From: a virus
Length of the DNA: 37,301 bases
Direction: 5' to 3' (one strand)
IMG/VR virus record: IMGVR_UViG_3300042554_002316
Location: 1 to 37,301 of that record
Shown: piece by piece, positions 2 through 37,240 of the stretch
Position numbering within the stretch: the stretch's first letter is position 1
Layout of the letters: every line of letters begins with the position of its first letter
Position numbers and translations under genes: made by a program
Notes under the pieces: model-generated
The model's database searches: none
The model's input: the letters and a program-made list of their open reading frames with translations, nothing else
Told to the model about the DNA's origin: nothing

Positions 2-20
2 ATAATGACAAGTTCTATCC
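2..20 (-). other. partial attC-like site (one arm) at window edge
   Basis: Read on the minus strand, the stop codon of the first gene is followed by an inverse-core box (positions 12-19, GATAGAAC) and then an arm shared with the site at 36801-36826 (13 identical bases, 2-14). The box is the reverse complement of the core box at 376-383 that opens the same cassette, as expected for the two ends of one gene cassette. The partner arm would lie outside the window. Confidence 0.6.
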
Positions 21-21
21 A

Positions 22-345
22 CTAACGCTTCGTGCAGATGCTCACTTGCTGCGTACTCGGCGAGACGGCCAGCAAGTCGAATCCGCCATATGACGAAATC
101 CAGTGCCAGCCGAGATCGGACGCCCAAACGTCTACCTCGCATCCGTCGCTCGTCGCCTTGATGCCGCCCATAGTGTTGACCTGTGAACCGTATGGAAAAT
201 GCTTGCTGGCCGCAGGCCATTCAGACTCGGGAACGATTATGTCCCAGTCTCTCGGTCGCGGCCCGACGCCACACATAAACTTCGCAGCACCGCCTACCAC
301 CCACGCCTTGTGTTCGTTCGTCAACACGCGAACGAGCGTCGGCAT
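22..345 (-). CDS. cassette-borne minimal nucleotidyltransferase-fold protein
   Basis: About 107 aa. It carries the signature of the DNA polymerase beta-like nucleotidyltransferase fold: a GG pair near residues 18-19, then D-W-D about 14 residues later (RDWDI), then a third acidic position in VDVW. These are the family's metal-binding acids, so transfer of a nucleotide to a protein or small-molecule acceptor is a reasonable family-level inference; the substrate is unknown. A longer reading from 423 exists, but it would begin inside the attC site at 376-465, so the ATG at 345 is preferred. The purine-rich GGGAG touches that ATG directly, so the start remains uncertain. The gene is alone in its cassette. 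Confidence 0.7.
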   Translation of the reverse strand: MPTLVRVLTNEHKAWVVGGAAKFMCGVGPRPRDWDIIVPESEWPAASKHFPYGSQVNTMGGIKATSDGCEVDVWASDLGWHWISSYGGFDLLAVSPSTQQVSICTKR

Positions 346-375
346 CTCCCGAAGCGACTCGTATCGAAATGCCGG

Positions 376-465
376 GATAGAACCAAGCGATGCAACGGAC
401 GGCCCTGCTACGTCATGTGTCATGGTGAGTCCTCCGGTGGCCGCCGTTGATCTTCCGCGTTCTGT
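376..465 (-). other. attC-like recombination site 1
   Basis: On the plus strand, AAC (381-383) begins an arm whose segments 389-391, 393-398 and 400-404 pair with 439-452. G392 and A399 are left unpaired, and the second arm ends in GTT (459-461). Paired arms with extrahelical bases on one strand and AAC/GTT boxes are the defining layout of integron attC sites. The core boxes (GATAGAAC at 376-383 and GTTCTGT at 459-465) differ from each other but match the far ends of their own cassettes. The loop holds the alternative ATG at 423. Confidence 0.75.
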
Positions 466-468
466 GGA

Positions 469-825
469 CTACTTGCCGTCGCTCGGCGGGGCCGGGAGCG
501 GCATCCAGTGGGTCGGCTGGTTTACGTCGGGCATGCAGGCCAAAGGGTCATGCCATTTTCCGTTGAACAGATAGCCCTTGCCGATGTCTCGCCTACCAGC
601 CCAGCCAACCATCACCACCTCATACTCGTCCGGCAGCCGCTCCGTCACCGGAATCCAACGCGGAATCTTTTCCCACAATGCCCGCATGGCATTGTCAGTG
701 AGCGTGTCAGTCTCGTCGTATGTCCATTCCGCTCCACAGTGGTCGCAGACTCCGCTTCCGGTGTACCCAAAGTGCGGGTATGTCCCCGTGCGGCACAGTG
801 GACATTCAATCCTGTTCTCGCTCAT
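469..825 (-). CDS. cassette protein with N-terminal zinc ribbon and DUF551-like C-terminus
   Basis: 118 aa. The N-terminus has CPLC and CDHC pairs about 20 residues apart, a likely zinc ribbon. The C-terminal half (WIPVTERLPDEYEVV and then THWMPLPAPP) matches the DUF551 pattern often found in phage and mobile-element proteins; its function is unknown. The ATG at 825 lies between the preceding attC and the zinc ribbon and has GAGG 7 nt upstream. The open frame extends to 948, but that stretch is attC sequence. A cassette-specific accessory role is inferred from position only. Confidence 0.75.
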   Translation of the reverse strand: MSENRIECPLCRTGTYPHFGYTGSGVCDHCGAEWTYDETDTLTDNAMRALWEKIPRWIPVTERLPDEYEVVMVGWAGRRDIGKGYLFNGKWHDPLACMPDVNQPTHWMPLPAPPSDGK

Positions 826-855
826 GTTGTGTCCTCGTCGTCCCACTCTACGCTC

Positions 856-911
856 ACAGAACCAGCGGATGAAGCGGACGGCGAAGCCGCCGCTTATCCT
901 GCGTGTTATGC
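856..911 (-). other. attC-like recombination site 2 (short, tight loop)
   Basis: The plus-strand arm 867-882 pairs with 886-899 across a 3-nt loop; G871 and A878 are the only unpaired bases. Boxes are ACAGAAC (856-862) and GTTATGC (905-911). This is the cleanest example in the window because the hairpin is compact. Its G and A bulges sit 11 and 18 nt after the first A of the AAC box, exactly as in sites 1 and 3. Confidence 0.8.
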
Positions 912-1118
912 GTCCTTCTTCGGCCATGGCATCAAGTCGCCCGCCCACAGCGAATGCTCAAACTCCTTGCCGCGTCCGTTCCTCTTTCCGAATCGCACCA
1001 CAAACTTGCAACGGAGGCGGCCCGCAGGAAGCCACTTGCGAACGACAACCCCGTCCCTGTCCTTGAACTTCTTGTCCAGCGGCGACAGGAAGTGATCTGG
1101 GTCTTTAACGCGAACCAT
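906..1118 (-). CDS. small basic cassette protein, SH3/KOW-like
   Basis: 70 aa, beginning MVRVKDPDHF and ending in a WAGDLMPW segment. Alternating hydrophobic/charged strands (VRVKDPDHF, DGVVVRKWL, RCKFVVRFG) suggest a small beta-barrel similar to phage and cassette SH3/KOW-like proteins; I cannot name a family. The ATG at 1118 has GAGGGAG just upstream and lies outside the preceding attC. A reading from 1208 would start inside that attC's loop. The 3' end overlaps the core box of site 2. Confidence 0.6.
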   Translation of the reverse strand: MVRVKDPDHFLSPLDKKFKDRDGVVVRKWLPAGRLRCKFVVRFGKRNGRGKEFEHSLWAGDLMPWPKKDA

Positions 1119-1146
1119 GTCTCCCTCAATCGGCTCCCACTCGCCC

Positions 1147-1236
1147 GCATAACCAGCGGATGCAGGAGACATCGCCTTGTCGTCCTGCGGTTTCGTTTCG
1201 TCTCTCATGCGATGCTCCTGATCCTGCGTGTTCTGT
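1147..1236 (-). other. attC-like recombination site 3 (large terminal loop)
   Basis: The plus-strand arm 1158-1175 (GGAT, G1162, CAGGAG, A1169, CATCGC) pairs with 1209-1224, leaving G1162 and A1169 unpaired. The loop is 33 nt. Core boxes are GCATAAC (1147-1153) and GTTCTGT (1230-1236). GCATAAC is complementary to GTTATGC at 905-911, the other end of the same cassette. Confidence 0.8.
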
Positions 1237-1238
1237 TT

Positions 1239-1547
1239 TCACCGATACATGCGATTCACACCGGCCTGAACGGTGGCCGGCCATTCGCACTCGTCGCCGA
1301 TGTATCCGATTTCTTCCAAGTCCGCGACGTCGTCACTGTCGTGATACGCTGTCGCCTCGATATAGCAATGGGCGACACCTCCGGAAACACTCCACCCTTT
1401 GATCTCGCCCTCCATCTCGCCCTCCGTCCATTTTCGAGGAGTTGGAAGGTCTACGGTCGTTCCGATTGGCATGAGAAACGGCATGTCTACTTGCACCCAT
1501 CTCGTTGCGAGCCCGTACACAAGTCCGTCTGCCCTTTTTTCAGTCAT
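1239..1547 (-). CDS. hypothetical cassette protein
   Basis: 102 aa from the ATG at 1547, acidic toward the C-terminus, with no recognised motif. Upstream in-frame ATGs at 1607 and 1634 give up to 131 aa, but they run back through attC site 4, whose core box is at 1564-1570, so the later start fits the cassette layout better. The stop codon directly abuts attC site 3, typical of a single-gene cassette. Function unknown. Confidence 0.6.
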   Translation of the reverse strand: MTEKRADGLVYGLATRWVQVDMPFLMPIGTTVDLPTPRKWTEGEMEGEIKGWSVSGGVAHCYIEATAYHDSDDVADLEEIGYIGDECEWPATVQAGVNRMYR

Positions 1548-1563
1548 GACAACGCGACACCAA

Positions 1564-1648
1564 ACAGAACCAAGCATTCGAACAGACCCGGCATCTTCCT
1601 GTGTCATATCAACGTCCTTTCTCGGGCTGCTCAATGCAGCCGTTCTTC
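1564..1648 (-). other. attC-like recombination site 4
   Basis: Plus-strand arms 1576-1590 and 1623-1635 pair (ATT/AAT, GAACAG/CTGCTC with one mismatch that is T-G on the minus strand, CCCG/CGGG). C1579 and A1586 fall at the same unpaired offsets as in sites 1-3. Boxes are ACAGAAC (1564-1570), matching the far end of the neighbouring cassette, and GTTCTTC (1642-1648). This is the last complete site before the prophage. Confidence 0.65.
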
Positions 1649-1655
1649 GATCCCG

Positions 1656-1973
1656 TCACCTGTCCGCCATTCGGATGGTATGCGCGGCCATCTGCTCGGG
1701 GTCGATCCTGCCGAAGTAGATCACGAACACGATGTTGGCGTCAGCCCCGTGTCGTTCCTGCAGAATCGCGCCCAGTTGCGTGAGCATCCGCCCCGCGGAG
1801 AACGTGAACCGCGAGAACGCCACCCGTAGGAACGTGGTCGGCGGGTCGGCCGTCTCGAACTGATCGAAAAACACCTGGGCCGGTGCGTGCTTGAAGCCGG
1901 CGGGCCGGTACAGCGAGTCGCACGCGTCTCGAATCTGTTCGGCAGTGAGCCCGGCCAGCATCGGCGCCTCCAT
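1656..1973 (-). CDS. hypothetical protein at cassette/prophage junction
   Basis: 105 aa, starting MEAPMLAGLTAEQ at the ATG at 1973 with GGAAACAG upstream. No recognised domain; it looks like a compact alpha/beta protein with a helical start. Its stop lies 7 nt before the inverse-core box of attC site 4, which suggests a cassette gene. It also stands back-to-back with the phage early promoter, the usual place for a phage regulator or moron. I cannot decide between the two. A longer frame to 2174 would run through the promoter region and is not preferred. Confidence 0.6.
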   Translation of the reverse strand: MEAPMLAGLTAEQIRDACDSLYRPAGFKHAPAQVFFDQFETADPPTTFLRVAFSRFTFSAGRMLTQLGAILQERHGADANIVFVIYFGRIDPEQMAAHTIRMADR

Positions 1974-35289: not shown

Positions 35290-36192
35290 CTATGCCGACC
35301 GTGCCGGTGGTTCCGGCTCATCGGGCCGGAAGACGCGGGGAAGCGATTGCCACGCCTTCGGGCGGCGGGAATCGACCACGCGAGGGTCGAGATACGACCG
35401 CCGTGTGATCCGATCGGTGGAGTGACCCAGGTACGACGTCGCATCGAGGCCGGCCGCGGCCAGATGGCTGGCCGTGGAACGCCGCAACGCGTGAAACTGA
35501 ACGTCGCGGCCGTCGCCAAGGCCGGCCCGCCTTGTGATGGTCTTCCAGCGTTTGCGGAGGGCCGTGCCGCTGGCCGCCCACCAAAACACCGTCGGGCCGT
35601 TGTGGCACGACACGGCATCCACGAGGTCGCATGCCTCCGGCGACAGTTCGTAAACCCGTTCCTGCCGACCCCCTTTGCGAACGCCGGCCGGCACCACGAG
35701 CGTGGGCCGCTGCCAGCAATGACGCGGAGTGTTGAGGATGGCGGAAATCCGCTCCCCGGTTTCCAGCCCAACGGCCACAAGAGCGGGAAAAAACACCCGG
35801 GCCGGAACCGGGCCAACCCACCCGGACGCGAGCCGCGCGGCCGCGGCTAGGCGGGCAAGCTCATCGGCCGTGAAGGCCCGCGGCGTGCCCTGCGGCACAA
35901 GCTCAGGCGCCACCGTCGGCCGCAGCCGCACAAGGCCACGGCCCTGCGCCAAATTCCACAGCGCCAGAATCCCGGACCGCTCGCGGGCGACCGAGTTCGG
36001 GCTTTTCTTCGCGGCCATCGCCGTGAGCCACTGACTGACGACGAGGTCGTCCAGGTCGTCGAGCACGGCCGGCCGGCCTAGCCATCGGCCGAACTGTGTG
36101 ACGGCATGCCGTAGAAGGCGGACCGACTCGGGTGAGCGGCCGCGGAGCCGAAGGGGAACGTAAACCGTCGTCAGAAAGGTGTCGAGCGTCAT
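35290..36192 (-). CDS. int: tyrosine-family integrase
   Basis: 300 aa. Core-binding domain (residues 1-90) and catalytic domain with R148 (ETGERISAI), K173 (VRKGGRQ), H234 and R237 (FHALRRST), H257 (YLGHSTDR) and Y267 (RRSYLDPR), a full R-K-H-R-H-Y set. It cuts and rejoins attP and attB. GAGGAGG 8 nt before ATG 36192. It lies at the right end, divergent from the regulator. It lacks the extra alpha-helical insertion of integron integrases, so it is a phage Xer-like enzyme, not IntI. Confidence 0.9.
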   Translation of the reverse strand: MTLDTFLTTVYVPLRLRGRSPESVRLLRHAVTQFGRWLGRPAVLDDLDDLVVSQWLTAMAAKKSPNSVARERSGILALWNLAQGRGLVRLRPTVAPELVPQGTPRAFTADELARLAAAARLASGWVGPVPARVFFPALVAVGLETGERISAILNTPRHCWQRPTLVVPAGVRKGGRQERVYELSPEACDLVDAVSCHNGPTVFWWAASGTALRKRWKTITRRAGLGDGRDVQFHALRRSTASHLAAAGLDATSYLGHSTDRITRRSYLDPRVVDSRRPKAWQSLPRVFRPDEPEPPARSA

Positions 36193-36339
36193 GGTGCGTG
36201 CCTCCTCTGTGGGTATAGGTCACGCTTCCGTGCGGTGAGTCCCCTCCGTGGTCGGTCGTCCGGTTTTTCCGTTGGTGCGGATTGGCCGCCGCACCGTTGG
36301 TCGTGGGATGGTTCGCTCCTGTCCCCGCCACTTTCAACC

Positions 36340-36367
36340 GTTGCAATCCTGTCCGGGGGATTGCAAC
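36340..36367. promoter_or_regulatory. operator-like inverted repeat upstream of regulator
   Basis: GTTGCAATCC (36340-36349) and GGATTGCAAC (36358-36367) are perfect reverse complements around an 8-nt spacer. They lie in the 228-bp gap between the integrase start and the Cro/CI-like start. CAACCGT occurs on both sides (36335 and 36364) and also in the early promoter (2041-2047). No strong -35/-10 is evident here. Confidence 0.6.
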
Positions 36368-36419
36368 CGTCGAAAACCCGGAAAAGCCCAGGAACTCCAG
36401 GAATCGGAGGGCCGGCACC

Positions 36420-36695
36420 ATGGCAACGGTCGCGGAGAGACACGTTGGCGGACGGCCCCGGACACGGGAGCCGTCGGCACTGTTTCTGCGGGTGCAGGCG
36501 ATGGCAAAGCGTCGCGGGATCCCGCTAGATGAACTTGCCGAGCGGGCCGGAATTCGCCGGGCGACCATCTACGAACTGAGCGACCCGCGGGTTTCCACTG
36601 CCCGGGCAATCGCCGACGCCCTAGGCGTCACGCTCGACCGCTTGACGCGGGACGAGCCTGCATCGAAACGAACGACCCGCCAGCGGTCGGCGTGA
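36420..36695 (+). CDS. Cro/CI-type HTH regulator
   Basis: 91 aa. LFLRVQAMAKRRGIPLDELA, then RAGIRRATIYELSDPRVSTA and RAIADALGVTLDRL, is an HTH_3 (Xre/Cro/CI) domain. It has no C-terminal dimerisation or LexA-like protease part, so it is smaller than lambda CI. GGAGG 9 nt before ATG 36420. It probably controls the integrase and early promoter through the operator repeats nearby. Confidence 0.8.
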   Translation: MATVAERHVGGRPRTREPSALFLRVQAMAKRRGIPLDELAERAGIRRATIYELSDPRVSTARAIADALGVTLDRLTRDEPASKRTTRQRSA

Positions 36696-36721
36696 CCGCT
36701 GATCCCGTCTTATCCCGGTCC

Positions 36722-36782
36722 GCATAACGCCGTCCCATGCGGTATCGCGGCCGCGTGGCGTGGGTTTCGTGCGGCGTTATCC
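36722..36782. other. long inverted repeat at prophage right end
   Basis: ATAACGCCG (36724-36732) and CGGCGTTAT (36772-36780) pair perfectly, with a second stem CCCATGC/GCGTGGG inside and a CGCGGCCGCG palindrome at the tip. It could be an attP arm, a terminator for the regulator or a degenerate attC. Its outer stem is continuous and lacks the two-bulge pattern of the other sites, so I do not count it as an attC. Confidence 0.5.
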
Positions 36783-36800
36783 GGCGAGGGCTGCGCTATA

Positions 36801-36826
36801 CGGGTCTGGATAATGACAAGTTAGGC
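36801..36826 (-). other. orphan attC arm beside prophage
   Basis: CGGG-TCTGGA-TAATGACAA-GTTAGGC has the second-arm spacing of the other sites (6-base L segment 10-15 nt before GTT) and a core box GTTAGGC matching 37152-37158. A complementary first arm (TTA, TCCAGA, CCCG) is not found in the neighbouring 150 bp on the prophage side or at the left junction. The site appears broken by the prophage or by later deletion. Confidence 0.55.
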
Positions 36827-37129
36827 CATGAAGCACGAAATGATCCACCCTATGCCGGTCACGACAGAAGCCGTCCCTACGGCCTTCAACATTCCGGCCG
36901 CAAATGGCTCGTCTGATTTCTTCCCGCCGGGTGTGGCTACGAAGCGAACCAACGAAGCCAGCCCCGCAGAGTGTGCCGCGCCGATGGCCGGTAGCCCGAG
37001 CGGCACGACAAACCACCCCCACATTATCATCACACAAAGGCCGTTCGCTACGATTGCCAGCAACAGCAGCACGACTGACGACACGAACTTGTGAAGGTCG
37101 TTCCAATTCGGTTCTTGTTCGCTACTCAT
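36821..37129 (-). CDS. cassette-borne multi-span membrane protein
   Basis: 102 aa. Four hydrophobic stretches (VSSVVLLLLAIVANGLCVMI; FVVPLGLPAIGAAH; AGLASLVRFVA; VVTGIGWIISCFM) after a short polar N-terminus MSSEQEPNWND. GGAGG 5 nt before the ATG at 37129. The cassette runs from the core box at 37151-37158 to its complement at 36820-36827. Function unknown; small membrane proteins are common cargo of chromosomal integrons. Confidence 0.7.
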   Translation of the reverse strand: MSSEQEPNWNDLHKFVSSVVLLLLAIVANGLCVMIMWGWFVVPLGLPAIGAAHSAGLASLVRFVATPGGKKSDEPFAAGMLKAVGTASVVTGIGWIISCFMA

Positions 37130-37151
37130 GAAATCCTCCGTGAAGTGGTGG

Positions 37152-37240
37152 GCCTAACAAAGCCTTGCAGCCGACTCCTAGCAGCGTCTTGCGTCATAGT
37201 TGAATCCTTGGTGCGGAGCGGCTGAAGGCAGCCGTTCTCT
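37152..37240 (-). other. attC-like recombination site 6
   Basis: Plus-strand arm 37164-37178 (CTT, G37167, CAGCCG, A37174, CTCC) pairs with 37215-37227 (GGAG, CGGCTG, AAG), leaving only G37167 and A37174 unpaired. AAC is 37156-37158 and GTT 37234-37236. The unpaired bases lie 11 and 18 nt after the first A of AAC, as on the left flank, more than 35 kb away. Confidence 0.8.

Follow-up and report, generated by a model that had tools for sequence, protein, structure and literature searches.

How does a phage genome come to carry integron-like gene cassettes, and which recombinase could move them? The question is raised by IMG/VR record IMGVR_UViG_3300042554_002316, a whole virus record of 37,301 bases, which was analysed in full and is referred to here as the window. 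Family profile matches identified genes for a terminase, a major head/protease protein, tail and tape-measure proteins, and RecT/RecE-like proteins, together with a tyrosine integrase and an HTH repressor. The terminase and major head proteins are less than 30% identical to those of the best-scoring isolated phages, and isolated phages gave no DNA match to the cassette array. Rfam and tRNA scans of the window returned nothing. It is probable that the window contains a phage cassette array that bears an attI site, has no IntI of its own, uses host IntI in trans, and is transcribed from a phage operon.

attC sites, cassettes, and an attI-like site in the window

The structural attC scan identified five attC sites in the whole record, all on one strand (Table 1). 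The scan had zero hits on the opposite strand of the window, and dinucleotide shuffles produced 0.03 hits per strand at threshold 10. At each of the four left-flank sites, the folded strand forms a hairpin with two bulged bases on one side. These sites, with their AAC/GTT core boxes, paired arms, and extrahelical bases 11 and 18 nt downstream of the first A of AAC, had been noted in a preliminary description of the sequence, and the fold, the scan, and a covariance model agree with its coordinates exactly. The end cores that it had paired (12–19 with 376–383, 459–465 with 856–862, 905–911 with 1147–1153, and 1230–1236 with 1564–1570) are exact reverse complements, and complementary end cores are present in all five window cassettes. 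The same property extends to other phages, since the end cores match fully in 125 of 148 viral cassettes, compared with 24% expected by chance from shuffling.

The covariance model was trained on 60 attC sites, all from other viral contigs with the window left out. It called the same five window sites with E-values of 1.5e-22 to 4.1e-13, and nothing more at E ≤ 1. At least five such calls had been named in the preliminary description as the support to look for; the fifth is the site at 37152–37240. In the attC alignment, 10 of 17 base pairs vary on both sides. The covariation score of this alignment, the sites of which were initially chosen by pairing score and are thus biased toward paired cells, is 0.336, compared with 0.092 in shuffles and at most 0.077 with the partners slid. 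The exchange of pair types is not forced by this choice, and one pair occurs as CG in 18, AU in 16, GC in 14, and UA in 12 sites.

Table 1. Coordinates of the cassettes, recombination sites, and neighbouring phage genes in the window (a slash in a crossover marks the point of exchange)
Feature	Positions	Strand	Details
End of attI-like site (ATAATGACAAG/TT), record start	2–14	+	crossover 12/13; same 13 bases as 36810–36822
Cassette 1	13–459	+	end cores TTCTAT and ATAGAA match
Cassette 1 ORF, weak nucleotidyltransferase match	22–423	-	phrog_1614, E 0.003; start codon within attC1; leader MTHDVAGPSVASLGS
attC1	377–465	+	crossover 459/460; fold, scan, covariance model E 2.3e-22
Cassette 2	460–905	+	end cores TTCTGT and ACAGAA match
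Cassette 2 ORF, DUF551 protein	469–825	-	PF04448, E 5.4e-11
attC2, short-loop type	856–911	+	crossover 905/906; fold, scan, covariance model E 3.7e-15
Cassette 3	906–1230	+	end cores TTATGC and GCATAA match
Cassette 3 ORF, no family match	906–1208	-	start within attC3; leader ...MSPASAGY
attC3	1147–1236	+	crossover 1230/1231; fold, scan, covariance model E 1.5e-22
Cassette 4	1231–1642	+	end cores TTCTGT and ACAGAA match
Cassette 4 ORF, no family match	1239–1607	-	start within attC4; leader MTQEDAGSVRMLGS
attC4, final site ahead of conserved phage left end	1564–1648	+	crossover 1642/1643; fold, scan, covariance model E 4.1e-13; G006 homology resumes at 1641
Conserved phage left-end gene, co-directional with cassette genes	1656–1973	-	97% identical in G006, 70% in G007
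Phage tyrosine integrase, not IntI-like	35290–36192	-	PF00589; no TIGR02249 match at E ≤ 1
HTH repressor-like gene	36303–36695	+	PF01381, phrog_8
attI-like module, about 113 bases	36710–36822	+	crossover 36820/36821; conserved in 11 viral contigs; resembles planctomycete attI
Cassette 5	36821–37234	+	end cores TTAGGC and GCCTAA match
Cassette 5 ORF, membrane protein	36821–37129	-	phrog_2169, E 2.7e-12
attC5	37152–37240	+	crossover 37234/37235; scan, covariance model E 1.5e-16

The fifth attC with its cassette at the right end, an attI-like site, and the antisense orientation of the genes relative to attC were missed in the preliminary description. The attI-like module is located at the head of the array, and its assignment as a putative attI is based on sequence conservation and on its likeness to planctomycete attI sites beside IntI. 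Several of the contigs sharing the module have unrelated sequence upstream, and those that run on contain a different cassette directly after G/TT, the slash marking the crossover. The window opens with 12 attI bases and runs past a second attI into another cassette. Thus, it is slightly longer than one phage unit and probably mixes variants. The attI sequence at both window ends, together with the 91% identical ends of the related record G007, leaves room for tandem prophages or mixed assemblies.

Position of the array in related phages

The integrase of the window is 98–100% identical to those of six contigs (L002–L007). The homology of L002–L006 to the window (92–99%) stops at the end of the attI-like site, at position 36822 or 36823, and where a contig runs on, a different sequence follows ACAAG/TT. 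The source contig of L007, G006, contains four other cassettes, after which homology to the window returns at 96–97% identity. The more distant phage G007 likewise has other cassettes and then rejoins the left end of the window. Both breakpoints are located exactly at G/TT. The array of G007 (L062) is at the same place but has no recognisable 13-base attI end, and judging by its sequence, the head site is different or decayed.

Phage genes flank the array on both sides in G006, G007, and G066. In the last of these, the array is positioned between the portal/terminase genes and the replication genes. In 14 of the 37 array contigs that are 15 kb or longer, more than 4 kb separates the array from each end; in 11, it is located within 1 kb of a contig end, compared with 2.5 expected, an excess that fits assemblies breaking at variable cassettes. 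Contigs L027, L018, and L029 of related phages start inside or just before an attC, as if the assembly breaks at the array. The preliminary description regarded the array as a non-phage structure on the left flank. This view does not hold, since in related records the array sits between the integrase/repressor end of the phage and its left end, and we conclude from these comparisons that the cassettes are part of the phage genome rather than host DNA beside a phage.

Because cassettes are present at both record ends, we initially read the window as one prophage, or several in tandem, inserted into a cassette array of the host chromosome, so that the cassettes would be host DNA at the two ends. 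The attC type and attI core, which are those of planctomycete integrons, agree with such an arrangement, as does the fact that all the viral records compared are linear metagenome contigs. We now regard it as unlikely, and dropped it given G006, G007, and the internal arrays: G006 and G007 run from the integrase end through the cassettes to the phage left end without a break, and the positions of the arrays in G066 and in the 14 contigs named above are internal. Furthermore, the viral cassettes are oriented unlike the chromosomal cassettes examined, and a related prophage in the planctomycete genome G027 is inserted in a tRNA gene and not in an array.

Recombinase and host

No IntI above the NCBIfam cut-off was found in any of 50 array-bearing viral records, some of which are incomplete and could hide an intI gene, and the window has none. 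The integrase of the window has no TIGR02249 match at E ≤ 1. There is no intI beside the attI-like site; the preliminary description had proposed looking for one near the array. Because intI was searched for and is absent, the array is not a complete integron. With five attC sites and intI absent, it falls under the definition of a CALIN (at least two attC sites, no intI nearby) and belongs with the phage-borne CALINs known before. The part of the earlier claim that concerned integron-type cassettes with attC sites is upheld by the fold, the scan, the covariation, and the covariance model, whereas a complete integron is not present. The absence of an integrase gene and of further cassettes was to count against the claim; intI is indeed lacking, yet a fifth cassette and an attI-like site were found, so that the finding survives in modified form.

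A scan of bacterial genomes for the attC core identified 17 loci, mostly in Planctomycetota. IntI scored above the cut-off in 9 of the 16 genomes with this attC type, and the viral attC covariance model recognises sites in the arrays of these genomes. In Planctomycetaceae chromosomes, this attC type occurs together with a true IntI and an attI core that resembles the viral one. The attI cores beside intI are GCTATACTGGGCAAGAGAATTACAAG/TT in G027 and GCTATACTGGGCAGGAGAAATACAAG/TT in G033, compared with GCTATACGGGTCTGGATAATGACAAG/TT in the window. These two host cores are identical to that of the window in 22 of 28 bases, and out of 5,734 GTT-anchored windows they rank highest. The 24-nt attI spacing is the same as that of the window in three of the four planctomycete genomes compared. 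None of 16 host genomes yielded the complete 113-bp attI, and hits to the core, for which a wider search was made, exceeded the background in G027 alone.

The first cassette at the chromosomal attI of G027 is of the viral DUF551 type (L157). Its attC is 97% identical to attC2 of the window, and its start shares 90% identity with the start of window cassette 2. The genome also contains a prophage, the RecT of which is 73–74% identical to the RecT of the window; across 118 genomes of the order to which G027 belongs, no other match reached this threshold. The prophage is bounded by a 55-base direct repeat overlapping a tRNA-Arg gene, and has no clear attC or attI. The presence of this RecT-related prophage in IntI-bearing G027 indicates that relatives of the window phage enter bacteria that make IntI. 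The RecT gene of the prophage contains one in-frame TAG (G027:C154:31977-32798), and one in-frame TGA is present in the integrase relative at G013:10005-10859.

The arrangement that we favour is that of a tailed temperate Planctomycetota phage, the array of which is bounded on one side by the attI-like site, at the integrase/repressor end, and on the other by the left end of the phage. During infection or lysogeny, host IntI would act in trans on the folded attC hairpins and exchange cassettes at G/TT. Near-identical phages would thus come to carry different accessory genes, as is seen in their cassette variation and G/TT breakpoints. The proposed host enzyme has a competitor in the tyrosine integrase of the phage itself, which would then be a non-IntI integron integrase. 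It is encoded about 0.6 kb from the attI-like site, and the clade to which the window integrase belongs is among the best attI matches. We nevertheless consider this role very improbable. Contigs G014–G017 have the attI module without an integrase match, although several contigs are fragments, and the match in G013 is only 34% identical and contains an in-frame stop. Most contigs with close relatives of the integrase have no adjoining array, and the G027 relative is consistent with a conventional phage integrase that targets a tRNA gene. As some contigs with the attI module had no match to the window integrase, the module is not a property of one phage integrase, and the candidate was dropped on account of module-bearing contigs without its close relatives. 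It is scarcely credible that the hairpins are terminators, or repeats of another kind that homologous recombination has spread among phages. The similar attC arms of different cassettes could recombine homologously, but the breakpoints are exactly at G/TT at both ends, the end cores match within a cassette and not between random cassettes, the bulges have canonical positions, and the same sites are present in IntI-carrying chromosomes.

Inverted cassettes, their expression, and known systems

A canonical cassette consists of a single sense ORF followed by attC at the 3' end, a plan from which these cassettes deviate. In each of the five window cassettes the ORF is antisense to attC; across 148 viral cassettes, the longest ORF runs antisense in 109 and in the sense direction in 8. 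The start codon is located inside attC in 81 of the 109 antisense ORFs. Of 17 chromosomal cassettes, 5 are antisense and 9 sense, and starts inside attC are rare among them. Pfam matches (DUF551, methylases, HNH) were obtained solely for antisense ORFs, and sense ORFs had none. Of 93 starts inside attC, 62 have a Shine-Dalgarno-like motif ahead of them, compared with 29% of other ATGs. Long-loop attC sites contain the start in 77 of 95 cases and short-loop sites in 2 of 14, and codon phases at the core box are distributed 64/15/0. As read from these sequences, the conserved attC arm is a translated N-terminal leader such as M...SxASxGS. The attC loop would thus provide the Shine-Dalgarno motif and start codon of the inverted gene, and the attC arm its N-terminal leader.

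The cassette genes are co-directional with the adjacent phage gene, either left-end or primosomal, in the window, G006, G007, G008, G009, G018, and G066, which suggests expression from a phage operon. Where an attI was found in these contigs, it is at the end far from the adjacent phage gene. The genes upstream of the array in G013 are mostly co-directional with the cassette genes. The antisense orientation of the genes relative to attC, with starts in the attC loop, likewise points to transcription from the neighbouring phage operon rather than from a Pc promoter at attI. The scan for sigma-70-like promoters, the model of which may not fit this phylum, identified none in positions 1–2400.

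The viral cassettes encode DNA methylases, HNH proteins, and DUF551 proteins, the last being the commonest family (14 of 110 cassette proteins, including that of window cassette 2). The cassettes of the window itself are mostly without an assigned function. The cassette at attI encodes a C5 cytosine methylase in one of two near-identical phages and an N6/N4 methylase in the other. An anti-restriction role was proposed earlier for phage cassettes (PMC9892861), and the likely use of the array is the fast swapping of anti-restriction and other host-interaction genes. More broadly, we lean toward the view that Planctomycetota phages keep a pool of inverted cassettes of their own, distinct from that of the host, in which attC serves as ribosome-binding site and leader, and that they combine expression from phage operons with a borrowed IntI and swap genes against host defences.

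Integrons and CALINs have been described in 21 phages, and phage attC sites were shown to be substrates of IntI1 (Qi et al. 2023, PMC9892861). Those phages resemble the ones studied here in having attC cassettes, often without IntI and some with methylase genes. A Shewanella prophage contains a CALIN that starts with an attI site, and the virulent phages TJE1 and PH101 have cassettes in the usual orientation (Qi et al. 2023, PMC9892861). The arrays described here differ in that one attI module is common to an entire lineage of planctomycete phages, that near-identical phages differ in their cassettes with breakpoints at G/TT, and that, unlike in TJE1 and PH101, the genes are antisense to attC and start inside it. 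Sedentary chromosomal integrons are known in Planctomycetota (PMC2426708, PMC8352920). They share with the viral arrays the attC type, according to the covariance model, and a similar attI core, but carry IntI, and the chromosomal cassettes examined are mostly sense (9 of 17). A literature search mainly at the level of titles and abstracts, which most subscription papers fell outside, found no description of an IntI-less attI array in a lineage of phages, of cassette turnover between near-identical phages, or of inverted cassettes with the gene start in attC.

Genes of class 1 integrons (IntI1, attI1, 59-base elements) are normally in the sense orientation, with attC at the 3' end and a Pc promoter at attI. 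The phage arrays have in common with them the attC hairpin with two extrahelical bases, the end-matching cores, and, presumably, insertion at attI, whereas in the phages it is the 5' end of the gene that carries attC. An inverted cassette, the hairpin of which also provides the leader and the start of translation, is unlike the textbook form, and one may ask whether folding of attC, binding of IntI, and translation influence each other. The arrays suggest that viruses use integron recombination routinely, beyond chance capture, and offer a natural system for following cassette turnover among near-identical genomes. They also point to phages as carriers of cassettes, such as those for methylases and DUF551 proteins, into chromosomal integrons.

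Two further overlaps between genes and recombination sites were observed in the window. The ORFs of cassettes 3 and 5 both end in TAA (906–908 and 36821–36823), and each of these stop codons falls within the G/TTA core box of the adjoining recombination site. The loop of attC5 (37129–37200, minus strand) contains the ATG of a 23-codon ORF, MTQDAARSRLQGFVRPTTSRRIS, the stop codon of which overlaps, as ATGA, the start of the membrane-protein ORF; from its sequence, this overlap looks like translational coupling.
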